In this document: positions 9,980-33,523 of the stretch, one piece after another
Numbering within the stretch: position 1 is the stretch's first letter
How the letters are laid out: each line of letters begins with the position of its first letter
DNA from: Rhodovibrio sp.
GTDB taxonomy: Bacteria > Pseudomonadota > Alphaproteobacteria > Kiloniellales > Rhodovibrionaceae
Direction: 5' to 3'
NCBI GenBank assembly: GCA_007127165.1
Contig: SKZV01000003.1
Location: 1-34,055 of the forward strand
Length of the DNA: 34,055 nucleotides
The notes under the pieces: generated by a model
Databases searched by the model: none
What the model saw: the letters and a program-made list of their open reading frames with translations, nothing else
Told to the model about the DNA's origin: nothing
Translations under genes and position numbers: made by a program

Positions 9980-10066
9980 GCGGCTGTGGCGGAATTGGTA
10001 GACGCGCAGCGTTGAGGGCGCTGTGGAGGTAACTCCGTGCAGGTTCAAGTCCTGCCAGCCGCACCA
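9980..10066 (+). tRNA. tRNA-Leu (anticodon GAG)
   Basis: An 87-nt class II tRNA. The acceptor arm GCGGCTG pairs with CAGCCGC (10056-10062), followed by discriminator A and an encoded CCA. The anticodon stem CAGCG/CGCTG (10007-10011 with 10019-10023) encloses loop TTGAGGG with GAG at 10014-10016, reading CUU/CUC codons. A long variable arm and a TTCAAGT T-loop are present. Confidence 0.95.
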
Positions 10067-10118: not shown

Positions 10119-10206
10119 GCGGCTGTGGCGGAATTGGTAGACGCGCTAGCTTCAGGTGCTAGTGGGCAGTATGCCCGTGGGGGTTCGAGTCCCTCCAGCC
10201 GCACCA
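10119..10206 (+). tRNA. tRNA-Leu (anticodon CAG)
   Basis: An 88-nt class II tRNA with the same GCGGCTG/CAGCCGC acceptor stem and encoded CCA. Its first 28 nt are identical to those of the tRNA-Leu 52 bp upstream. The anticodon stem CTAGC/GCTAG (10146-10150 with 10158-10162) encloses TTCAGGT with CAG at 10153-10155, reading CUG, the main Leu codon in high-G+C genomes. The two tRNAs are probably co-transcribed. A hairpin (10069-10084) sits in the spacer. Confidence 0.95.
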
Positions 10207-10252: not shown

Positions 10253-10768
10253 CTATCGTCCTTTTGCCGTCACCCGGGAGGCGAGCGCGTTCTCCTCAAC
10301 CCGAATTCGATGCGCAAGGACTAGAAGGTTCGCCGCTCCGAACCCCAGCGCCAATTCCCACGCCGCGAAAGCCAGCGGCAACAGCGGTATTTCCAGCGCC
10401 ACAATCGCGTAGTTCGGATGACGCATGAACCGGTAGGGGCCGCGCCGTACGAGCGGTGCGTGCGCGAGGGTCACGACTCGCGTGGTCCAGTACCGCCCCA
10501 GGCTCGCAATCGTCCAGACGCGCGCCGCCTGCAACAGCAGGTAAGCCCCAAGCAGCGTCCAAACGACGGGTGCATCGATGGGTACGGCGAAGAAAATCGC
10601 CGCCAGCCAAGCCGCATGCAGCCCCACGATCAGCGGATAATGCCGCGCACCGTGCTCCGTCGCTCCTTCGGCGAAGAGGCGGCGTGTGTTGCGTTGCGCA
10701 TAAGCCACTTCGGCCAAGCGCTGTACCGCGACCAGCAAAACGACGATCTGCGCGATCCCGATACTCAT
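10253..10768 (-). CDS. Isoprenylcysteine carboxyl methyltransferase (ICMT)-family membrane methyltransferase
   Basis: A 171-residue membrane methyltransferase with about five hydrophobic helices. The conserved C-terminal SAM-binding block GPYRFMRHPNY (about 110-120) and a following HRIRVEE motif mark the ICMT/PEMT superfamily. Its ATG overlaps the stop of the type III PKS gene (ATGA, 10765-10768), so the two are translationally coupled. In bacteria such ICMT-like genes next to type III PKS genes are taken to O-methylate alkylresorcinol or alkylpyrone products. Methylation of the PKS product is inferred from this linkage, not from substrate-specific residues. Confidence 0.82.
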   Translation of the reverse strand: MSIGIAQIVVLLVAVQRLAEVAYAQRNTRRLFAEGATEHGARHYPLIVGLHAAWLAAIFFAVPIDAPVVWTLLGAYLLLQAARVWTIASLGRYWTTRVVTLAHAPLVRRGPYRFMRHPNYAIVALEIPLLPLAFAAWELALGFGAANLLVLAHRIRVEENALASRVTAKGR

Positions 10769-11832
10769 GCCGCCATGTCCGGTTCAAGCACGGCGAATCC
10801 AGCGGTAAAGCCCGGACCGAGCGCCGAGGCCAAAATCGGCCCCCGCGGCCTCTCCGCCAGAACGTCTCGTAGCACGAACAGCACCGTCGGCGCGGACATG
10901 TTGCCGTAGTCGCGCAAAATTCTCCGCGCTGCCGTCATGCCGCCCTCGGGAACATCCAAAACGTCCTCAAGCGCCGCGATCACCTTGGCCCCACCCGGGT
11001 GGCAGGCGGTCGCCGCCAGATCCAGGCGCGTCATCCCCTCGCGCTCCAGAAACCGAGTCATGACCGGTGCATAATCCTCTCGCACGAGGTTTGGAATATT
11101 GCTGGAGAACAGGACGCCCAGACCGTCGTCTTCGACCTGCCAGCCCATCACGCCGAGGCTGTCCGGCCAAGTGTATTCACCCTCTGCCCGAAGAACCGGG
11201 CCCCGGTCGCCTGGCACGCTGCTGATCAGGGCCGCCGCAGCCCCGTCGCCGAACAACGCCGTTGCCACGACGTTGCTTTTCGACAGATCTCGGGGCCGGA
11301 ACGTCAGCGCGCAAAGCTCCACGACAAGCAACAGCACGCGCCGACCGGTCCGCGCCCGCGCCATCTCCGCAGCGCGGCCGAGCCCCAGCACCCCGCCGCA
11401 GCAACCCAGCCCAAAGACGGGCAGCCGAACGGCGTCGCGCCGGAACGGGAGGCGCTCCATCAGTTGCGCGTCCAGGCTCGGGGTCGCAATGCCAGTGGTC
11501 GAGACCGTTACGAGGGCATCCACCGCGCCTGCCTCGATCCCGGCTTCGGAAAGGCATTGCCGCGCCACCTGCTCCAGAAGGTCGAGCGCGTGGATCTGGT
11601 AGAGTGCATTGCGCTCCCGCCAACCCGTTTCGCGGCCGTACCACTCCAGCGGCATGGCGGAGTAACGCCTTGCGATTCCGGCGTTGTCGAACACGGGGAG
11701 CAGCCGGTCGAGCCCTGCGTCGTGCCTCTGAAACAACCGCCGGGCGCGCTCACGCACGGCCCCCTGATCCAGCGCGTGCGGCGGAACCGCCGTCGTTAGT
11801 GCGGTGAGGCGGGGAAGAACATCCTGGGACAT
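10765..11832 (-). CDS. Type III polyketide synthase (chalcone/stilbene synthase family)
   Basis: A 355-residue iterative ketosynthase of the CHS-like family, expected to extend an acyl-CoA starter with malonyl-CoA to an alkylresorcinol, alkylpyrone or related phenolic or pyrone lipid. With the start at 11832, the triad is Cys144 (in FGLGCCGG), His278 (ACHPGG) and Asn311 (DYGNMSAPT). I chose 11832 because GAGGTGA lies about 9 nt upstream; the ATG at 11886 would add 18 residues without family similarity. Having Cys-Cys at the active site (often Cys-Ala) is a small oddity. It is the first gene of a two-gene operon with the ICMT-like methyltransferase. Confidence 0.92.
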   Translation of the reverse strand: MSQDVLPRLTALTTAVPPHALDQGAVRERARRLFQRHDAGLDRLLPVFDNAGIARRYSAMPLEWYGRETGWRERNALYQIHALDLLEQVARQCLSEAGIEAGAVDALVTVSTTGIATPSLDAQLMERLPFRRDAVRLPVFGLGCCGGVLGLGRAAEMARARTGRRVLLLVVELCALTFRPRDLSKSNVVATALFGDGAAAALISSVPGDRGPVLRAEGEYTWPDSLGVMGWQVEDDGLGVLFSSNIPNLVREDYAPVMTRFLEREGMTRLDLAATACHPGGAKVIAALEDVLDVPEGGMTAARRILRDYGNMSAPTVLFVLRDVLAERPRGPILASALGPGFTAGFAVLEPDMAA

Positions 11833-11934
11833 TGCGGGTGTCACCTCTATGCTGCGCCTGACGGACGAAGTAGCCCAGCCTATCATGAGGAAAAGTGGCG
11901 CGAATGCCGCCCGCTTTCATGGGGCTGGGCGGAA

Positions 11935-12017: not shown

Positions 12018-13592
12018 GTGCATTACGACGCGGAGCATTCACTTAAGCCCATGCCAGGACATCGAGAGCGGGAAGCGCGGACCGCCCCGGAGGGGAGCGG
12101 GCCGTCGTTGCATGACTCCCTCCTGACGCCGCCCCACGAAGCCGGACTGGGCGCGCGCCTGCGGAATTATTTTCTCGCGGGCCTGCTCGTCGTGGCGCCG
12201 ATCTCGATCACGCTCTGGCTGATCTGGCAGTTCGTCGCTCTCGTCGACGGTTTCCTGAAGCCGCTTATCCCTGTCGTATGGCGGCCGAACTATTACCTCC
12301 CCTTCGATCTTCCCGGGCTGGGGCTGATCATCGCGATCGTCGGCTTGACCTTGATCGGCATGCTGGCGACCGGATTGATCGGCAAGCTGATCATGCGCTC
12401 TGCCGAACACCTTGTTGACCGCGTTCCTGTCGTGCGCTCGGTCTACGGCGCGACCAAGCAAATTCTCGAAACCGTGCTGGCGCAGCGTTCGGTGGCGTTT
12501 CGTCAGGTGGTGCTGGTGGAGTTTCCGCGCCGCGGGATCTGGGCCCTCGGCTTCATCACCGGAACCACGGAAGGGGAGGTTCAGACGATCACCGACCAGA
12601 CGGTCGTGAACGTCTTCGTCCCGGCCACGCCCAATCCGAGCACCGGCTTTCTGATCTTTGTTCCCAAAAGCGAAGTGCGGCTTCTCGACTTGGACATGGA
12701 GTCGGCGGCAAAGCTTTTGATGTCCGGCGGTATCGTCTCACCGCCGGAAAACGGCGAGCCGCCGGAGAGGCTGCTGCCGGAGCGTGAGGCAAACCCGAAG
12801 ACGAGCGGCACGTCCGAATCGAGCAGGATTGGTCCGGCTGGTGCAGGTCCGGCTGGTGCCGGGGGCGAATATCATCCGCATCGCTTTAGCCTGATGGCCC
12901 GCCTGCGTAACTACTTCTTTGCTGGAGTTCTCGTAGCCGCACCGATCTCGGTCACGATCTGGCTGACCTGGAACGTCGTCGCTTTCGTGGATGCGCGGGT
13001 CACGCCAATGCTTCCGGAGAGTTGGACACCAGAGGCGTATCTGCCGTTTTCGGTCCCCGGAATCGGGGTGCTGATCGTTGTGGCGGCGCTCACGCTGGCG
13101 GGGATGCTGGCGACCGGAATCGTGGGCCGCATGATTACGAGGACCTACGAGCAGGCGATGAACGCCGTGCCGGTGATCCGTTCGCTTTACGGCGGCATCA
13201 AGCAAATCTTCGAGACGGTGCTGGCGCAGCGTTCCAAAGCATTCCGCGAGGTCGTGCTGGTGCAGTATCCACGCGAGGGGGCATGGTCGCTCGCGTTCAT
13301 CACCAGCGAGACGAAGGGCGACGTTCGCCGCAAGGGACCGGACGACAGCATCAACATCTTCCTGCCGACGACGCCGAATCCGACCTCCGGATTCCTGCTC
13401 TTCGTGCCGCGCGCGGAGCTTCGGTTGCTCTCGATGACGCCGGAGGAAGGGCTGAAGATGATTATTTCCGGCGGTATAATCACCCCGCCGGAAAGGGGCG
13501 AACCCGAGGTCGACACGCGGCCTCCGGAGGTCGAGGATGCCCGTGCGGTCGCCGCTGGAGGCTGGACCGGCCGTCGTGGTCCTGGGAATTGA
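12018..13592 (+). CDS. Tandem fusion of two DUF502 membrane domains
   Basis: A 524-residue protein with two full DUF502 domains in one frame, whereas DUF502 proteins are normally single-domain (about 200-250 residues). Domain 1 spans about 43-248 and domain 2 about 292-496. Each repeats the same landmarks: ARLRNYF-AG, VAPIS-T-WL, LPF--PG-G, GMLATG, VP-VRS-YG--KQI-ETVLAQRS, P-TPNP--GF and GGI--PP. Each copy has two hydrophobic helices and a soluble C-terminal part. A Gly/Pro/Ala linker (about 272-283) joins them. The role is unknown; plant DUF502 (COV-like) proteins are membrane proteins tied to vascular patterning. The start is GTG 12018; ATG 12051 is an alternative and loses only polar residues. 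Confidence 0.85.
   Translation: MHYDAEHSLKPMPGHREREARTAPEGSGPSLHDSLLTPPHEAGLGARLRNYFLAGLLVVAPISITLWLIWQFVALVDGFLKPLIPVVWRPNYYLPFDLPGLGLIIAIVGLTLIGMLATGLIGKLIMRSAEHLVDRVPVVRSVYGATKQILETVLAQRSVAFRQVVLVEFPRRGIWALGFITGTTEGEVQTITDQTVVNVFVPATPNPSTGFLIFVPKSEVRLLDLDMESAAKLLMSGGIVSPPENGEPPERLLPEREANPKTSGTSESSRIGPAGAGPAGAGGEYHPHRFSLMARLRNYFFAGVLVAAPISVTIWLTWNVVAFVDARVTPMLPESWTPEAYLPFSVPGIGVLIVVAALTLAGMLATGIVGRMITRTYEQAMNAVPVIRSLYGGIKQIFETVLAQRSKAFREVVLVQYPREGAWSLAFITSETKGDVRRKGPDDSINIFLPTTPNPTSGFLLFVPRAELRLLSMTPEEGLKMIISGGIITPPERGEPEVDTRPPEVEDARAVAAGGWTGRRGPGN
12831..12860 (+). repeat. 15-bp tandem duplication in the linker of the DUF502 fusion
   Basis: GGTCCGGCTGGTGCA is followed directly by GGTCCGGCTGGTGCC (one mismatch in 15). 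It encodes GPAGA-GPAGA in the flexible linker between the two DUF502 domains and suggests slippage or recent duplication of the linker. Confidence 0.85.
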
Positions 13593-13595
13593 GCG

Positions 13596-13622
13596 AAAAA
13601 CAAAGCGCTAGCCGCAGGCGCT
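13596..13622 (-). terminator. Probable Rho-independent terminator of the DMSP-lyase-like gene
   Basis: On the minus strand, a stem AGCGC / GCGCT (13618-13622 with 13604-13608) with a 9-nt loop is followed by TTGTTTTT (13603-13596). It begins at the stop codon of the cupin gene and lies in the 29-bp gap to the convergent DUF502 gene. The stem is only 5 bp, so strength is uncertain. Confidence 0.5.
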
Positions 13623-14239
13623 CAGGACTTGCTGCGCGGTCTCGAAAACTCCATCCCGGGTTCTGCCAGACGCTCCGGTGGCCCCGTCCAGGCGTACGCC
13701 AAAAGGCAGGGTTCGCGGTTGCCCACGGTGATTCGGTGCTCCTGCCCCGAGCGGTTGAGGATCAGCGAACCGGGCGCATAGACCGCGCCATCGTTCTCCG
13801 ACCATGCGCCGGCCATGGAGATGTAGCTTTCCTCGATATCGTGGTGGCTGTGCTGCGGATAGGTCGTTGCAGGCGCGAAAAGCACTAGGCCGAGGATCAG
13901 CGAATCCGCCACCACCGGTCCGCGCGGGCCCACGATTTCGCTATAGGCATAACGCTTGGCCAGGTCCTTCGAAATGCGGGAGTAACCCCACTCCCACGCC
14001 AGATGCTGGTGAATTCGGTGGAGGGCGCGGGCCATCCCGGCGAGCGGCCCTTCCACGGCCAAATCGAACGCCCGGCCCAGATGATCCAGCACCGGTTTCG
14101 CCTCCGACTCCCGCAACAAGATTGGCGGATCGGCTCGCACGATTCGGCTCAGCGAGTGCCGGACCTTGCGTTGATGGCTGCGGATCACACCACTCCCGCC
14201 CGCCGACCCGAGGCGGTAGACCACGTCGAACTCCCGCAT
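13622..14239 (-). CDS. DMSP lyase-like cupin (DddL/DddQ family)
   Basis: A 205-residue protein (from ATG 14239) with a C-terminal cupin. The stretch RYAYSEIVGPRGPV, then LGLVLFAPATTYPQHSHHD, matches my recall of the DMSP lyase family. Cupin motif 1 is intact as HxH-x4-E-x6-G (H130, H132, E137), Tyr139 follows, and motif 2 supplies H168 in SGQEHRITVG. LLAYAWTG near the end is also typical. Such enzymes cleave dimethylsulfoniopropionate to dimethyl sulfide and acrylate using a bound metal ion. A GTG at 14299 would give 225 residues and cannot be excluded. The gene lies 83 bp downstream of the dsbA-like gene on the same strand. Activity is inferred. Confidence 0.65.
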   Translation of the reverse strand: MREFDVVYRLGSAGGSGVIRSHQRKVRHSLSRIVRADPPILLRESEAKPVLDHLGRAFDLAVEGPLAGMARALHRIHQHLAWEWGYSRISKDLAKRYAYSEIVGPRGPVVADSLILGLVLFAPATTYPQHSHHDIEESYISMAGAWSENDGAVYAPGSLILNRSGQEHRITVGNREPCLLAYAWTGPPERLAEPGMEFSRPRSKS

Positions 14240-14322
14240 CAAATAGCCCCACTCAGGATGCGCGCTGAGGGGGCCTAAGAATGACACGCGCTTGCTCACC
14301 AATTGCGTGGATTTTCTGGCGG

Positions 14323-14967
14323 TTAGGAGGTGGCTTCCTTGCTCTCTTCGCGCGCCACGTCGAAGAGTTGGAACAGCACTTCCGGCTCTTGCGCGCCGGA
14401 TAGCGAATAGCGGCCGTTCAGGATAAAGGTCGGCACACCCTGGATACCCGCCCGCCGGGCCTGCATGTCCTCGGCCTGCGCGGCCTCTAGCCCGGTGTTG
14501 TTCGCAAGGCACTTACGCGCAGCATCGGAGTCGAGCCCACTGTCGGCAGCCGCCTGAATCAGCACCTCCGGATCGCCGATGTCCGCGCCTTCGAAGAAGT
14601 AGAGGCGGAACAACTGCTCCACCAGAGGGTCCTGATCCCCGGCGTCCCCGGCAAAGGCGATGAGTTGATGGGCGGGCAGGGTGTTCGGGGTGCGGCGAAT
14701 GCGTTCGAAGTCGAACGCGATCCCTTCCTGCGCTCCGGCCTGCTGAATGGCGTTGTAGACCCGCGCCGCGTTTTCCCTACCGCCGAATTTCCGGTCAAGG
14801 TAGGTCGTCCGGTCCATACCCTCCATCGGCATGTCGGGGTTGAGTTGGAAGGCGCGCCAGCGCACACTCAGGCTTGGCTGCGGACGCTCCACCAGCGCAC
14901 GTTCCAGGCGGCGCTTGCCGATGAAGCACCAGGGGCAAATTACGTCCGAAAAGATGTCGATATGCAT
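14323..14967 (-). CDS. DsbA-family thiol oxidoreductase, FrnE-like
   Basis: A 214-residue thioredoxin-fold protein with a helical insertion. The redox motif CPWC is at residues 11-14, straight after the first strand (MHIDIFSDVICPWC), and the cis-Pro loop GVPTF is near 177-181. No signal peptide is present, so it is cytoplasmic, as for FrnE-type proteins rather than periplasmic DsbA. An AGGAGG Shine-Dalgarno (14975-14980) lies 7 nt upstream. The gene is divergent from the CoA-synthetase operon, sharing a 98-bp promoter region, and is followed by the DMSP-lyase-like gene. The substrate is unknown; 2-hydroxychromene-2-carboxylate isomerase relatives share the fold but usually lack CxxC. Confidence 0.85.
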   Translation of the reverse strand: MHIDIFSDVICPWCFIGKRRLERALVERPQPSLSVRWRAFQLNPDMPMEGMDRTTYLDRKFGGRENAARVYNAIQQAGAQEGIAFDFERIRRTPNTLPAHQLIAFAGDAGDQDPLVEQLFRLYFFEGADIGDPEVLIQAAADSGLDSDAARKCLANNTGLEAAQAEDMQARRAGIQGVPTFILNGRYSLSGAQEPEVLFQLFDVAREESKEATS

Positions 14968-24211: not shown

Positions 24212-24301
24212 TGGCGGAGGGGGTGGGATTCGAACCCACGGAGGGTGTGAACCCTCGCCGGTTTTCAAGACCGGTGCATTCGACCGCTCTGCCACCCCTC
24301 C
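24212..24301 (-). tRNA. tRNA-Ser (anticodon UGA)
   Basis: A 90-nt class II tRNA on the minus strand. Acceptor GGAGGGG pairs with CCCCTCC, then G and an encoded CCA (24212-24214). The anticodon stem CCGGT/ACCGG encloses CTTGAAA, giving anticodon TGA (complement at 24265-24267). A long variable arm (GAGGGT-TCAC-ACCCTC) and GGTTCGAATCC T-arm are present. Confidence 0.96.
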
Positions 24302-26981: not shown

Positions 26982-28118
26982 ATGTTGCGACAAGTCGTGC
27001 GAACTGGTTTCATGCTTCTTCTCGCCGTCTTCGTTGTCGTTCGCTCCGCGGAGGCACTGGAAACCCCGGCGAACGGCGCATTCCTAATGGACGCGGAGAC
27101 CGGAGCGATCTTGATGGCGAAGAACCCCGACGCGCAGGTTCCGCCAGCTTCCATGAGTAAAATCATGACCGCCTTCATGGTCTTTGAGCGATTGAAAGAT
27201 GGCCGGCTTGCGCTGGACGACACTTTCCATGTATCCGAGAAAGCTTGGCGCAAGGGCGGCTCCAAGATGTTCGTGGAGATCGGCAAGGAGATCCGGATCA
27301 AGGACCTGCTGCGGGGCGTCATCATTCAGTCGGGCAACGACGCCTCCATCGTGCTAGCCGAGGGTATCGGCGGGACCGAGGAGGCGTTCGGCGATATGAT
27401 GACGCAGCGAGCGAAGGAAATGGGGGTCACGAACTCCACCTTTCGCAATGCAACCGGCTGGCCTCATCCCGAACATCGCACGACGCCTCGAGATCTTGCC
27501 ACCATCGCGAAGTACCTGATCCAGGAATTCCCCGAGTTCTATCACCTCTATTCGGAGCGGGAATTCACTTGGCACGATATCACGCAGTACAACCGCAATC
27601 CGCTGCTCGGCCGCACAAACGGCGTCGACGGATTGAAGACCGGTTATACCCGGGAAGCGGCCTACGGCTTGACTGCGTCGGCGGAGCGCGACGGACGCCG
27701 CTTAATTCTCGTCGTCAGCGGACTGGATACGGCGGAGCAGCGCGCGTCGGAATCGGCGCGTTTGCTGGAGTGGGGTTTTCGGGAGTTCGACAATCTGCGG
27801 CTCTTCGAAGCAGGTGAAACGGTCGAAGAGGCGCCTGTATGGCTGGGCGATCTCGGTCGCGTGCCGCTTGTCGCCCGCGAGGATCTGGTGTTCACCGTCC
27901 CTCGCAGCTTTGAGCGCGAAATGAAGGTCACCTTGACCTATGACAGCCCCATCCCCGCGCCGATCAGGAAGGGCGATGCACTCGCGACCTTGCGCGTGGA
28001 AGGGACGGAGATAGAGACGATCGAGGTTCCGCTGGAGGCCGGTGAAGATGTCGAGCAACTTGGCGCGATCGGGCGGATCGTCAGCGGAATGCAATATCTC
28101 GTCTTCGGCGCACCCTAG
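26982..28118 (+). CDS. dacC: D-alanyl-D-alanine carboxypeptidase (PBP5/6 type)
   Basis: A 378-residue low-molecular-mass penicillin-binding protein that trims terminal D-Ala from stem peptides. A signal peptide covers about 1-25. The three active-site motifs are SMSK (57-60), SGN (117-119) and KTG (219-221). The C-terminal ~100 residues form the PBP5-type second domain. A final amphipathic membrane anchor is short or absent. The 153-bp gap after rlpA (26829-26981) holds no other gene that I can see and may carry its own promoter. In alphaproteobacteria this gene commonly sits upstream of tmk. The symbol (dacA/dacC/dacF) is a naming choice. Confidence 0.92.
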   Translation: MLRQVVRTGFMLLLAVFVVVRSAEALETPANGAFLMDAETGAILMAKNPDAQVPPASMSKIMTAFMVFERLKDGRLALDDTFHVSEKAWRKGGSKMFVEIGKEIRIKDLLRGVIIQSGNDASIVLAEGIGGTEEAFGDMMTQRAKEMGVTNSTFRNATGWPHPEHRTTPRDLATIAKYLIQEFPEFYHLYSEREFTWHDITQYNRNPLLGRTNGVDGLKTGYTREAAYGLTASAERDGRRLILVVSGLDTAEQRASESARLLEWGFREFDNLRLFEAGETVEEAPVWLGDLGRVPLVAREDLVFTVPRSFEREMKVTLTYDSPIPAPIRKGDALATLRVEGTEIETIEVPLEAGEDVEQLGAIGRIVSGMQYLVFGAP

Positions 28119-28159
28119 TAGAGGCGTGTAAGCCGATACACCATGAGCAACGGGACACC

Positions 28160-28798
28160 ATGACCATTGGGCGCTTCATCACCTTCGAGGGCGGAGAGGG
28201 TGCCGGGAAGACGACCCAGATTGCCCGGCTCGTGCGCGTTCTGCGCGCTCGCGGGGTTGAGGTGGTGCAGACCCGGGAGCCCGGTGGCAGCCCCTCCGCC
28301 GAGGCTGTTCGGGACCTGCTGCTGCACGCGGATCACGGCTGGGAGCCGCTGAGCGAAGCGCTGCTGCACTACGCCGCTCGCTGCGAACACTTGACCGCGA
28401 CGATCCGGCCCGCTTTAGCGCGCGGCGCTTGGGTCGTGTGCGATCGCTTTTCCGATTCGACACGTGCTTATCAAGGCTTCGGGCTTGGCCTCGATATCGG
28501 CACTCTCGAGGCGCTGGAACACATGGTCGTCGGCAGCACGCGGCCAGACCTGACGCTGATCCTCGACCTCCCGCCAGAGGTTGGGCTGGGTCGCGCCACC
28601 GGTCGTAAGGCGGCGGCGGATCGATACGAGCGGATGAGCGAGACCTTCCACAGCCGTTTGCGCGAAGGCTTCCTGGCCATTGCCGCCCGCGCGCCGGAAC
28701 GCTGCGCGGTAATTGACGCCGAGCCGGGCGAGGAGCAGGTTGCCGAAGCAGTTTTCCGCGCGGTTCGTGAACGTTTGGGAGGGCCTGCGGCGGCATGA
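28160..28798 (+). CDS. tmk: Thymidylate kinase
   Basis: A 212-residue dTMP kinase that makes dTDP for DNA synthesis. The P-loop GGEGAGKTT is at 11-19, TREPGG at 38-43 (phosphate/nucleoside contact) and the DRF motif with DSTRAYQG at 95-106. The basic, Arg-rich LID (GLGRATGRKAAADRYE) lies near 146-161. Its TGA overlaps the holB ATG (ATGA, 28795-28798), a conserved coupling. It is preceded by dacC with a 41-bp gap. Confidence 0.96.
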   Translation: MTIGRFITFEGGEGAGKTTQIARLVRVLRARGVEVVQTREPGGSPSAEAVRDLLLHADHGWEPLSEALLHYAARCEHLTATIRPALARGAWVVCDRFSDSTRAYQGFGLGLDIGTLEALEHMVVGSTRPDLTLILDLPPEVGLGRATGRKAAADRYERMSETFHSRLREGFLAIAARAPERCAVIDAEPGEEQVAEAVFRAVRERLGGPAAA

Positions 28799-29922
28799 GC
28801 AATCGCACCTCTCCGAGAAAGTCAAAGTCGGCGGAAATGCCGGAGGCAGAGAAGGGCCCGCCACACCCGCGCCGCGTAACTGGCCTACAGGGTCACGAGG
28901 CGGCGGAGCGGACCTTGTTGAACGCGTGGACATCGGAGCGGCTGCCGCATGCGTGGCTGCTGACGGGACCGCGCGGCATCGGCAAGGGAACGCTCGCGTA
29001 TCGCTTTGCGCGTTTCGTGCTGGACGGCGGCGGCAGCGGCGGACTGTTCGGAGAGGGCCCGGACAGTTTGGAGATCGACCCGGAGAGCGCGACGGCGCGG
29101 CAGGTCTCCGTCGGCAGCCATCCGGATTTCTTCGTCCTGGAGCCTGGCTTGCCCAACCCCGCGACAGGGCGGCCGAGTAAGGAGATCCTGGTCGGGCATA
29201 TTCGCAAGGCGGTGCATTTCTGCTTCATGACACCCTCGCAGTCGCGCTGGCGCGTCGTGCTCGTCGATCCGGCCGACGCGATGAATCCAAATGCGGCCAA
29301 TGCGTTACTCAAGGTTCTTGAGGAGCCGCCGCCACAGGCGCTGCTGCTGTTGGTCAGCCACGCCCCAGCCGCTTTGCTGCCGACGATCCGATCGCGCTGT
29401 GCCCAGCTTGCCATGCCAGGACTATCCGAGGACATCGTCCGGACGCAACTCAATGCCTACGACCCGAACATCGATGACCTGGATGCGCGGGCACTGGCCC
29501 GGCTGGCGGAGGGCAGCCCTGGACGGGCGATCTCGCTTCACGACGCGGGCGGACTGGACCTTTACCGCGAGATGGTCGCTCTCCTCGACGCACTGTCACG
29601 CGGCGCGGGCGGGGACTTGCATCGCTTTTCTGAGCGGCTGTCGCAGAGCGGCGAGGGCGGCAGCTTCCAAGTCGGCGGCGAATTGCTCTCCTGGTGGCTG
29701 GCCCGGCTGGCCCGCGCTCGGGCGGAAGGCCGGCTGCCGCCCGAAGCGATCACCGGTGAAAGCGAAACGATGGGGCGCTTGCTGGAGCGGGGCAGCCTTG
29801 AACAGTGGCTTGAGCTGTGGGAAAAGATCACCCGCCTGTTCGGCGGCGCCGAGCGCGGCAATCTAGATCGCAGACAGGTGACGCTGACGGCCCTGCTGGA
29901 GATTGAGGCGCTGACCGCCTGA
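28795..29922 (+). CDS. holB: DNA polymerase III subunit delta'
   Basis: A 375-residue clamp-loader subunit of the AAA+ fold. GLQGHEAAERTLLNAW near residue 30, the P-loop-like GPRGIGKGTLA (about 59-69), VVLVDPADAMNPNAANALLKVLEEPP (Walker B and sensor region, about 155-180, recognised by its parts) and TIRSRCAQL (about 199-207) are the family landmarks. It joins DnaX and HolA in loading the beta clamp. Its start overlaps tmk by 4 nt. It is followed by metG after a 33-bp gap. Confidence 0.94.
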   Translation: MSNRTSPRKSKSAEMPEAEKGPPHPRRVTGLQGHEAAERTLLNAWTSERLPHAWLLTGPRGIGKGTLAYRFARFVLDGGGSGGLFGEGPDSLEIDPESATARQVSVGSHPDFFVLEPGLPNPATGRPSKEILVGHIRKAVHFCFMTPSQSRWRVVLVDPADAMNPNAANALLKVLEEPPPQALLLLVSHAPAALLPTIRSRCAQLAMPGLSEDIVRTQLNAYDPNIDDLDARALARLAEGSPGRAISLHDAGGLDLYREMVALLDALSRGAGGDLHRFSERLSQSGEGGSFQVGGELLSWWLARLARARAEGRLPPEAITGESETMGRLLERGSLEQWLELWEKITRLFGGAERGNLDRRQVTLTALLEIEALTA

Positions 29923-29955
29923 AAGACTGCTGGCAAGCCCCGAAGGGAGATGTTC

Positions 29956-31527
29956 ATGGCCGGTGCGGAAAACCTTGGCAAAGCACCGTACTATATTACG
30001 ACGCCGATCTACTACGTGAACGACAAGCCGCACATCGGCCACGTCTATACCACGCTGGCCTGCGATGTACTGGCGCGCTTCATGCGGTTGGATCGCCGCG
30101 AGGTGTTTTTCCTGACCGGCACGGACGAGCACGGGCAGAAGGTCGAGCGCTCGGCGCTGGCGCAGGGCATGGAGCCGCAGGCGTTCACCGACGTGATGTC
30201 GGGGAATTTCCATGATCTCTCCGCCGCTTGGCAGTTCAGCAACGACGACTTCATCCGCACGACCGAGGCGCGCCACGTGAAGGCGGCGCAGGCGCTGTGG
30301 CGGAAGTTGCAGGAGAACGGTGAGATCTATCTCTCCAGCTATGCAGGCTGGTACGCGGTGCGCGACGAGGCCTTCTATGCCGAGGACGAACTAGCACAGG
30401 GAGAAGACGGGCGGAAGTACGCGCCCTCCGGTGCGCCGGTGGATTGGGTGGAGGAGCCCAGTTATTTCTTCCGCCTTTCGGCGTGGCAGGATCGCCTGCT
30501 CGACTTCTACCGGACGAACCCGGACTTCGTGGGCCCGGAGGGGCGGCGGAACGAGGTCGTCAGCTTCGTCAAGTCGGGGCTGCGCGATCTCTCGATTTCG
30601 CGCACGACCTTCAAGTGGGGCATTCCCGTGCCCGGCGACCCCGACCATGTGATGTACGTCTGGCTGGACGCCTTGACGAACTACATAACCGCCGTCGGCT
30701 ATCCCGATGAAAACGCGGAGTCTTATCGGAAGTTCTGGCCCGCCGACCTGCATATGGTGGGCAAGGACATTCTGCGTTTCCATGCGGTCTACTGGCCTGC
30801 CTTCCTGATGGCGGCCGGGGTGGAGCCGCCAAAGCGGGTCTTCGCCCATGGCTGGTGGACCAGCGAGGGGCAGAAGATCTCCAAATCCGTAGGCAACGTG
30901 ATCGACCCCTATGAGTTGATCGACACCTACGGACTAGATCAGGTGCGTTATTTCCTGCTGCGCGAGGTGCCCTTCGGCAACGACGGGGACTTCTCTCACC
31001 GCGCGATGGTCAGCCGGATGAACAACGATCTGGCGAACGATTTCGGCAACCTGGCACAGCGCGTGCTGTCGATGGTACACAAGAACTGCGACGGGCGGAT
31101 ACCGGAGCCGGGGCGCCTCATGGCGTCCGACGAGTCCATGCTCGCGGCGGCGACGGCGGTGCTTCCGAAACTGCGCAGCGAGTTGGCGGTGCAGGCGTTC
31201 CATCGCGCGCTCGAAGCGATCTGGACCGTCGTCGGGCAGGCAAACCGCTACGTCGACGAGATGGCTCCCTGGGCCTTGCGTAAGACGGACAAGGCACGGA
31301 TGGAAACCGTACTCTTCGTGCTGGCGGAGGTCGTGCGCCAGCTCGCAATCTTGACCCAGCCGTTCATGCCGAACGCACCCGCGAAGCTGCTCGATCAGAT
31401 GGGCCAGCCGCAGGAGGCGCGCGACGTGGCGGCGCTGGACCAGCCGCTGGAGCCGGGCAGGGCGATCGAAAGGCCGCAGGGCGTCTTCCCGCGCTATGTC
31501 GAGGAAGCGAAACAGGACGCCTCATAA
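29956..31527 (+). CDS. metG: Methionyl-tRNA synthetase
   Basis: A 523-residue class I synthetase that charges tRNA-Met. The HIGH motif is in DKPHIGHVYTT (HIGH at 26-29) and the KMSKS loop reads KISKS (307-311, in SEGQKISKSVGN). The C-terminal ~150 residues form the helical anticodon-binding domain; no C-terminal EMAP/dimerisation domain is present. I prefer ATG 29956 because GGAG (29946-29949) lies 6 nt upstream, whereas ATG 29950 directly abuts that site. Its TAA overlaps the tatD ATG (TAATG). Confidence 0.96.
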   Translation: MAGAENLGKAPYYITTPIYYVNDKPHIGHVYTTLACDVLARFMRLDRREVFFLTGTDEHGQKVERSALAQGMEPQAFTDVMSGNFHDLSAAWQFSNDDFIRTTEARHVKAAQALWRKLQENGEIYLSSYAGWYAVRDEAFYAEDELAQGEDGRKYAPSGAPVDWVEEPSYFFRLSAWQDRLLDFYRTNPDFVGPEGRRNEVVSFVKSGLRDLSISRTTFKWGIPVPGDPDHVMYVWLDALTNYITAVGYPDENAESYRKFWPADLHMVGKDILRFHAVYWPAFLMAAGVEPPKRVFAHGWWTSEGQKISKSVGNVIDPYELIDTYGLDQVRYFLLREVPFGNDGDFSHRAMVSRMNNDLANDFGNLAQRVLSMVHKNCDGRIPEPGRLMASDESMLAAATAVLPKLRSELAVQAFHRALEAIWTVVGQANRYVDEMAPWALRKTDKARMETVLFVLAEVVRQLAILTQPFMPNAPAKLLDQMGQPQEARDVAALDQPLEPGRAIERPQGVFPRYVEEAKQDAS

Positions 31528-32324
31528 TGCTGATCGATTCCCACTGCCACCTGGACATGGTGGCGGAGCGCGAGGACCTGGACGAGGTGATCGCGCGTGC
31601 CCGCCGCGCGGAGGTCAGTGGCATGCTGACGATCTCCACGCGTCTTTCGACGTTCCCGAGAGTGCGGGAGATTGCGGCGCTCTACGAGGGTGTCTGGTGC
31701 ACCGTCGGCATCCACCCGCATCAGGCGGGCGAGGAGGGGCAGGAGAGCCCCGAGCGGTTGGTGGAGCTTGCGGCGGACCCGCTGGTCGTGGGGATCGGTG
31801 AGAGCGGGCTCGACTATTTTTACGATTCCTCGCCGCGCGACGTGCAGGCGCAGAGTTTCCGCGCCCACATTCGCGCGGCTCAGAAAACCGGCCTGTCGCT
31901 GGTCGTCCATGCGCGCGACGCCGATGAGGACGTAGCCGCAATTCTGCGCGAAGAATACGAGGCTGGCGGCCCTTACGGCTGTGTGATGCACTGCTTCTCT
32001 TCGGGGCGCGGGCTTGCCGAGGCGGCGCTGGCATTGGGCTTTTACATTTCGTTCTCTGGTATCGTGACCTTCAAGAACTCGCACGAGCTACGCGCCATCG
32101 CAAGCGACGTTCCACTCGAACGCTTGCTGATCGAGACCGACGCGCCCTACCTTGCGCCGGTGCCCAAGCGCGGCAAGCCGAACGAGCCGAGCTACGTCAG
32201 CTACACAGCCGACTTCCTGGCGGAGCACCTCGGGATTTCGCGGGCGGAACTGGGACGGCGAACGCGAGAGAACTTCTTCCGGCTGTTCGATCGAGCCCAG
32301 TTGCCGCGACAAAGTGCGCCATGA
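31527..32324 (+). CDS. tatD: TatD-family metal-dependent hydrolase
   Basis: A 265-residue TIM-barrel hydrolase of the amidohydrolase superfamily, with metal ligands His6 and His8 (DSHCHLD), Glu92 (GIGESGLDY), His128 (VVHARDA), His155 (VMHCFSSG) and Asp205 (IETDAPYL). Members act as DNA exonucleases or D-aminoacyl-tRNA deacylase-like enzymes; its position after metG is conserved in many bacteria. Starts with an ATG overlapping the metG stop and ends overlapping the next gene (ATGA). Confidence 0.95.
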   Translation: MLIDSHCHLDMVAEREDLDEVIARARRAEVSGMLTISTRLSTFPRVREIAALYEGVWCTVGIHPHQAGEEGQESPERLVELAADPLVVGIGESGLDYFYDSSPRDVQAQSFRAHIRAAQKTGLSLVVHARDADEDVAAILREEYEAGGPYGCVMHCFSSGRGLAEAALALGFYISFSGIVTFKNSHELRAIASDVPLERLLIETDAPYLAPVPKRGKPNEPSYVSYTADFLAEHLGISRAELGRRTRENFFRLFDRAQLPRQSAP

Positions 32325-33097
32325 AGGTGACGGTCCTTGGCTGTGGCGGCTCCGGCGGGGTGCCGCTGGTGGGACCGGTTTGGGGCGAGTGCGATCCGTC
32401 CAACCCGAAGAATCGACGGTTTCGCCCGTCGATTCTGGTGGAGGAGGATGGCCGGCGCCTTCTTGTGGATACCTCTCCAGACCTGCGCCAGCAACTTCTG
32501 GCGAGCGAGATCGATTCGCTGGATGCGGTTCTCTTCACCCATTCACACGCTGACCACTGCCACGGCATCGACGACTTGCGACCGCTGATCTACAAACAGG
32601 GTAGCCCGATCAATGCCTATAGCGACGACGAAACGCTGAATGCGCTTCGCCATCGTTTTGCCTATGCCTTCGAAAGCAGTCGCCAGAGCGGCAGCTTTTA
32701 TGGCGCGCTGCTGTGCGACCACACGATCAGCGTTGGTGAACCTTTTGAAGCGGCAGGATTTACCTGCACCGCCTTCACGCAGACACATGGCAAATGGATC
32801 ACTCTCGGCTTTCGTATCGACGCACTGGGATATTCGCCGGACGCGGCGGAAATCAGCGAGGCCGGGCTTGAGACTCTGAAGGGCGTGGACTGCTGGATCG
32901 TCGACTGCCTGCGCTACGAGCCGCACCCCAGCCACGCGCACTTTCGCCGCGCGCTAGACTGGATTGAGCGTATCGCACCCCGCAGAGCGGTTCTCACACA
33001 CATGAACCATACGCTAGACTATGCTGACCTGGCTGTCCGCTGCCCCGAAGGCGTGGAGCCCGGGTACGACGGTCTGGTTATCGACGTTTCGAATTAG
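32321..33097 (+). CDS. MBL-fold metallo-hydrolase, PhnP-like
   Basis: A 258-residue metallo-beta-lactamase-fold phosphodiesterase-like protein. The metal motif HSHADH is at 74-79, with further His at QTHGK and THMNH (late third). The N-terminus (GCGGSGGVPLVGPVWGECDPSNPKN, read as two shorter blocks) resembles PhnP and related cyclic phosphodiesterases. No phn genes are nearby, and this gene belongs to the metG-tatD run, so a housekeeping nucleotide role is more likely than phosphonate use. The start overlaps tatD by 4 nt. Confidence 0.9.
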   Translation: MKVTVLGCGGSGGVPLVGPVWGECDPSNPKNRRFRPSILVEEDGRRLLVDTSPDLRQQLLASEIDSLDAVLFTHSHADHCHGIDDLRPLIYKQGSPINAYSDDETLNALRHRFAYAFESSRQSGSFYGALLCDHTISVGEPFEAAGFTCTAFTQTHGKWITLGFRIDALGYSPDAAEISEAGLETLKGVDCWIVDCLRYEPHPSHAHFRRALDWIERIAPRRAVLTHMNHTLDYADLAVRCPEGVEPGYDGLVIDVSN

Positions 33098-33106
33098 AAG
33101 ACGCTG

Positions 33107-33523
33107 ATGCTGCTCGATTTCGCCAAAATTCCGGCCACGCGGCGGCCGAATGCCTGTCTGGCCTGTCCGCCGCATTGGAACCGCAGTGACGGGGATCCGG
33201 TGTCTCCTGTTTTCAAGGCGCCGGTCGAGCGTCTGCGCGAAGTCCTGGTCCGGATCGCCGCGCAGGAACTGAGGACGCATCTGTTGTGTCTGGACGTCCA
33301 ATCACGTCAGGCCGAGTTCGAGCAACGCTCCCGAATATTGCGCTTCCCGGACACGACCACCGTGGCATTCGAACCAATGGGCGGCAACCGGTCGAGCCTC
33401 GCGATCTTCAGCCGCGCCCGCTACGGCTACTGGGACTTCGCAGTCAATCGGCGGCGGGTCGAGCGCTGGCTGAAAGCCTTGGGAGAGTCGCTAGGTCCGA
33501 CGGACAACGCGTTTGCGCCATGA
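33107..33523 (+). CDS. DUF1499 domain protein
   Basis: A 138-residue protein of unknown function. RPNACLACPPHW near the N-terminus and FSRARYGYWDFAVNRRRVERWL near the C-terminus (read as adjoining short blocks) are the DUF1499 landmarks. No signal peptide is evident in this copy. It starts 9 bp after the metallo-hydrolase and its TGA overlaps the NUDIX ATG (ATGA), so it is part of the same operon. Confidence 0.82.
   Translation: MLLDFAKIPATRRPNACLACPPHWNRSDGDPVSPVFKAPVERLREVLVRIAAQELRTHLLCLDVQSRQAEFEQRSRILRFPDTTTVAFEPMGGNRSSLAIFSRARYGYWDFAVNRRRVERWLKALGESLGPTDNAFAP

Follow-up and report, generated by a model that had tools for sequence, protein, structure and literature searches.

A tandem DUF502 protein is the standard form of the family in one bacterial order

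DUF502 proteins and a gene carrying two copies of the domain

Bacterial and archaeal DUF502 proteins are for the most part single-domain proteins of about 200–300 aa, and to our knowledge no biochemical activity has been described for any of them. The plant protein CONTINUOUS VASCULAR RING (COV1) and the COV-like membrane proteins, which we take to belong to the same Pfam family, are not known to be other than single-domain, unlike the protein described here, and we know of no molecular mechanism of COV1 that could be transferred to DUF502. Those passages of the literature in which we found the family mentioned give no function for DUF502. COV1 itself is described as a trans-Golgi network (TGN) protein that is needed for vacuolar protein sorting and takes part in the association of TGN and Golgi (PMC7752856, which cites Shirakawa 2014). 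As a putative family member, COV1 may serve as the nearest lead to a DUF502 role.

The window, by which we mean the whole 34,055-nt stretch of DNA analysed here, is the entire contig C93 of a draft genome (353 contigs, 91.9% completeness). One of its genes forms a single open frame of 524 codons without internal stops (Table 1), and the only Pfam family found in its product is DUF502 (PF04367), which matches twice along the chain and scores 223.8 bits (cut-off 23.8, E 2.8e-67). Scored singly, the two cores reach 117.7 and 116.0 bits, so that both copies separately exceed the curated Pfam score of 23.8 bits, and each core spans the profile completely, from position 1 to 107 of 107. The original prediction, that two complete DUF502 domains sit in one uninterrupted frame, is thus borne out, and the frame is intact across 12780-12890, the stretch singled out there for checking. 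Aligned over their full length (residues ~43-248 against ~291-496), the two copies form a gap-free alignment of 206 aa with 55% identity (BLASTP E 5e-90), which excludes a chance likeness between them.

Each half of the tandem protein matches the complete DUF502 profile, and it does so with transmembrane (TM) helices, an amphipathic helix and a beta-domain in the same order and with the same invariant Gly, Pro and Tyr positions. What sets the tandem protein apart is the presence of two copies in one chain, a set of fixed residue differences between these copies, and a linker that spans 24-64 aa in its relatives (measured from the conserved P242 to R295) and is rich in A, E, R and P.

Table 1. 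Positions of the tandem DUF502 gene, its parts and neighbouring features in the window
Feature	Coordinates	Strand	Remarks
Tandem DUF502 gene	12018-13592	+	524 aa; GTG start; alternative in-frame ATG at 12051
N-terminal DUF502 copy	12144-12764	+	residues ~43-249: TM1 (44-83), TM2 and following helices (101-155), beta-domain (163-235); Pfam core at 12327-12644, residues 104-209; Pfam, BLASTP, AlphaFold2
Arg171 (YPR motif, N copy)	12528-12530	+	Arg in 11/42 N halves, 42/42 C halves and 53/56 single-domain proteins; Arg retained in the window
Ala203 (N copy)	12624-12626	+	Ala in 41/42 N halves; Thr in 41/42 C halves and 54/56 single-domain proteins
Linker	12765-12887	+	residues 250-290; predicted disordered (AlphaFold2 model)
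C-terminal DUF502 copy	12888-13511	+	residues ~291-498; elements ordered as in the first copy; Pfam core at 13071-13388, residues 352-457; Pfam, BLASTP, AlphaFold2
Asp435 (C copy, GEV motif)	13320-13322	+	Glu in 42/42 N halves, 45/56 single-domain proteins and 0/42 C halves
Type III polyketide synthase	10765-11886	-	upstream of the tandem gene; Pfam
Polyketide synthase gene, then ICMT-family methyltransferase gene	10253-11886	-	likely phenolic-lipid pair
DMSP-lyase-family cupin	13622-14512	-	downstream, convergent with the tandem gene; Pfam DMSP_lyase, 135 bits; start codon uncertain
tRNA gene	9980-10063	+	
tRNA gene	10119-10203	+	
tRNA gene	24215-24301	-	
Run of genes	26982-33523	+	PBP5-type D-alanyl-D-alanine carboxypeptidase, thymidylate kinase, DNA polymerase III delta-prime subunit, methionyl-tRNA synthetase, TatD, metallo-beta-lactamase-fold protein

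Distribution and genomic setting of the tandem form

Within the order to which the window belongs, DUF502 was found in 60 of 61 genomes, and both domains lie in one frame in 58 of the 61. The genome without DUF502, G002, is 100% complete and belongs to the window's own family; it is the only member of the order in which no match was seen at E <= 0.001, an apparent loss. The two other exceptions, G036 and G430, are incomplete genomes with one DUF502 copy each: the copy in G036 begins 233 bases from a contig start, and the genome of G430 is 77% complete. The one-contig G001, a member of the window's family that has the fusion, also carries photosynthetic reaction-centre genes. Outside the order the picture is reversed. 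In a sample of the class (190 genomes), 128 genomes outside the order carry DUF502, nearly all of them as a single domain in a frame of ~200-370 aa; only one (G140) has the tandem form, and seven carry two separate DUF502 genes. A sample of the phylum (200 genomes) yielded no tandem protein among 88 DUF502-positive genomes outside the order, and every complete named relative that we fetched from Gammaproteobacteria or another phylum has a single domain. G140 belongs to an order of two genomes, and the other member, G431, has the tandem form as well (2/2). One order thus has the tandem form as its standard, a small second order has it too, and elsewhere in these samples it is rare. The statement that DUF502 is normally single-domain holds for most of the lineages sampled, and the architecture is indeed unusual outside the order (1/128 and 0/88); inside the order, and in the second one, it is the rule, so that tandem DUF502 proteins being already common, which had been named as grounds for giving up the idea of an exceptional protein, is the case there and nowhere else in the samples.

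Two members of the order carry two tandem DUF502 genes each, namely the genome of L132 (G037:C60) and G032 (C241 and C376), for which contamination or a second paralogue are possible sources; the C half of L132 sits on a long branch in the tree. In two proteins of genus g23 (L129 and L030), the match to the C half falls into two parts, the first ending around domain residue 60, which suggests a local insertion or divergence.

Most of the neighbourhoods fetched, for tandem and single-domain genes alike, share a downstream order of an opposite-strand gene of ~700 aa, a small gene and a same-strand gene of ~1180 aa, and Pfam scans of representatives name these neighbours as RecG, Sdh5/SdhE and Mfd. 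DUF502/recG/sdhE/mfd is an ancestral locus common to both versions, as also seen for single-domain DUF502 in Alphaproteobacteria, and this shared neighbourhood indicates that the tandem gene replaced a single-domain gene in place. Beyond recG/sdhE/mfd, no operon partner was found in the fetched neighbourhoods.

In the window this context has been lost, and the tandem gene instead lies between a polyketide synthase and a cupin. The polyketide synthase is followed by an ICMT-family methyltransferase gene, and its cluster recurs close to the DUF502 gene of L118, L119, L130 and L133 and to the single-domain gene of L151. The cupin received no NCBIfam name, and among these window neighbours we saw no sign of a functional link of tandem DUF502 with either the polyketide synthase or the cupin. 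The window further holds three tRNA genes, the first two close together near the polyketide synthase region, and a run of genes whose order is common in bacteria (Table 1).

Age of the duplication and asymmetry of the halves

In a tree of 180 DUF502 domains, every tandem domain falls on one side of a starred branch, and 43 N halves form a group (94% SH-aLRT) separate from the C halves. Among 42 tandem proteins, N and C halves of the same protein are 46-64% identical (median 55%), and the same half compared between proteins gives medians of 0.62 (N-N) and 0.61 (C-C), a pattern to be expected if the duplication is old and its copies have not undergone gene conversion recently. Both the trees, in which the halves group apart, and the identities agree with the age assigned to the duplication in the original prediction, and to judge from the sequences a single old in-frame duplication is likely, with moderate support.

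The second order bears on how often this happened. In the 180-domain tree the N and C halves of G140 paired with one another, each on a very long branch, as would be seen if G140 had undergone a second duplication of its own; once G431 was added, in a smaller tree, the N halves of this order took a place within the N group (97/83), which makes an independent event less likely. In the same tree the N halves of all tandem proteins form one group (83/76), and a constraint holding all four halves of the second order together was not rejected (p-AU 0.225). A single group of C halves was neither resolved nor rejected there (p-AU 0.236), so the duplication may have a nested origin or have occurred more than once. 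The simplest account, with moderate support from these comparisons, would be one duplication that was shared by descent with the second order or transferred to it.

We compared the 42 tandem proteins with 56 single-domain proteins at the 48 positions that are at least 80% conserved in the latter. At 43 of these the conserved residue is kept in both halves, four are eroded in the N half only (Arg171, Thr203 to Ala, Ser209 to Thr, and Met225), one in the C half only (Glu at 435) and none in both. All five asymmetric positions lie in the beta-domain, while the membrane part is free of such sites. Position 209 is Thr in 40 of 42 N halves and Ser in all 42 C halves, and Met225 is relaxed in the N halves; the corresponding figures for positions 171, 203 and 435 are given in Table 1. 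Asp224 is present in every N half, which does not hold for the C halves; in single-domain proteins its conservation is only about one half. As the 42 sequences are related, these counts do not represent independent events, and what they record is that the sampled families of the order share these states. A comparable pattern is seen in the second order, where the N halves have Ala203 and Thr209 and the C halves retain Thr; in G431, for example, the N half reads PATPNPTTGF with YPH and the C half PTTPNPTTGF with YPR. The protein of the window itself shows the asymmetry weakly, with Arg in both halves and Asp at 435.

Predicted structure and readings of the fusion

The AlphaFold2 model of a single-domain relative (pLDDT 88.7) consists of a long helix 1, helices 2 and 3, an amphipathic helix and a small five-stranded beta-domain. 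In the model of the tandem protein this secondary structure is repeated, with helices at 44-83, 101-135 and 137-155 and strands within 163-223 in the N half, and helices at 292-331, 349-383 and 385-403 and strands within 412-464 in the C half. The DUF502 layout of two TM helices followed by a beta-domain is thus found in the models of the single-domain relative and of both halves, with the cytosolic side assigned from charge only. The tandem model has a mean pLDDT of 71.9 and a pTM of 0.54, with most TM helices at 60-82 and the linker at 42-48; its N-terminus and linker are disordered. Given this pTM and the disordered linker, the packing of the halves against each other is not predicted with confidence, and modelling of the full protein, one of the checks initially proposed, supports the repetition of elements and leaves their mutual arrangement at low confidence.

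Basic residues lie on the N side of TM1 and after TM2, with an acidic loop between them (5.9 K/R against ~2.5 D/E after TM2, and 1.3 K/R against 2.5 D/E in the TM1-TM2 loop). By the positive-inside rule, and together with the models, we infer that the protein probably has an N-in/C-in topology with both beta-domains in the cytosol; since each copy contributes two TM helices, the second copy would be oriented like the first.

A sequence search for a solved homologue, which could show the oligomeric state of single-domain DUF502, found none, and Foldseek returned no structural match at E <= 0.001. The mechanosensitive channel MscS resembles DUF502 loosely in layout only (TM helices, then a small beta-domain): its entries appear far down the Foldseek list for the tandem model (E 0.9-1.5), and hhalign gave a probability of 3.7% with the alignment falling outside the beta-domain, which gives no profile support for kinship with MscS. 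VIA-align matched SH3/Tudor-like barrels to the beta-domain only, with Z scores of 5-6.6, below the level that indicates kinship.

We consider it probable, with moderate confidence, that the gene encodes an inner-membrane DUF502 protein made of two fused parallel copies, which arose by in-frame duplication, is equivalent to a tethered dimer and has specialised beta-domains. In the ancestor of the order, a duplication at the DUF502/recG/sdhE/mfd locus would have joined two subunits through a flexible linker, each contributing a pair of TM helices, an amphipathic helix and a small beta-domain of five strands, which is predicted to be cytosolic. The product would be a 4-TM protein with both copies in the same orientation. 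After the fusion, both copies would have stayed under strong constraint while their beta-domains specialised, the C half keeping the Arg, Thr and Ser of the family and the N half changing them and keeping Glu. A covalent, asymmetric pseudo-dimer is our best reading, put forward as a hypothesis; it fits the topology, in which two TM helices per copy give both the same orientation, and the asymmetry may reflect a division of labour between the halves.

The same protein could also be nothing more than two ordinary subunits tied together, if chance fixed the duplication in a single ancestor and the halves were then retained through mutual dependence, with no new function. Such a neutral fusion would agree with the 43 of 48 family-conserved positions that are intact in both halves, with a locus that is the same as that of the single-domain gene, and with a linker that is long, variable and disordered. 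At the same time, differences fixed across the families of the order at sites otherwise conserved in DUF502 (Ala203 in 41/42 N halves, Glu absent from position 435 in 42/42 C halves) suggest that the divergence of the halves is relevant, although fixation in a single ancestor followed by entrenchment could produce them neutrally as well. We regard a neutral origin as a possible but doubtful account.

A more specific form of the pseudo-dimer, which we advance tentatively and think rather unlikely as it stands, is an obligate asymmetric one with a functional site shared across the interface, to which the C half would contribute Arg419, Thr451 and Ser457 and the N half Glu187 and Asp224. Improbable, in our judgement, is a division into an active and a modifying half, in which the C copy would keep the functional centre (YPR, PTTPNPTSGF) and the N copy would have become its partner in a regulatory or structural role. 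The N copy does carry four of the five asymmetric changes, and three of these four affect the two best conserved motifs of the beta-domain; the second order shows a similar pattern; against this, the N copy is conserved as well as the C copy overall (median 0.62 vs 0.61), and it keeps Glu187 and Asp224, which are absent from the C copy, and so is not degenerating. Finally, a join of two adjacent single-domain genes by assembly or annotation, for which only the draft state of the source genome (353 contigs) would speak, is rejected as extremely improbable, because the frame is intact and the same fusion recurs in a further 57 genomes of the order, the one-contig G001 and G006 among them, and in the one-contig G431 of a different order, with halves too diverged (55% identity) to resemble a repeat collapse.

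Tandem DUF502 is thus a normal inherited feature of its order rather than an oddity. What the present analysis adds is its clade-wide distribution, a likely single origin and an asymmetry of residues fixed between the halves, and with these the idea of a pseudo-dimer can be put to the test. DUF502 is a widespread membrane family for which no solved homologue is detectable by sequence; the five positions with a fixed N/C difference name residues to mutate, and the tandem protein is a naturally fused construct with which structural studies could address the assembly of DUF502. If the reading with a shared site is true, the clade would be a natural experiment showing that DUF502, and by extension plant COV1, works as a dimer.
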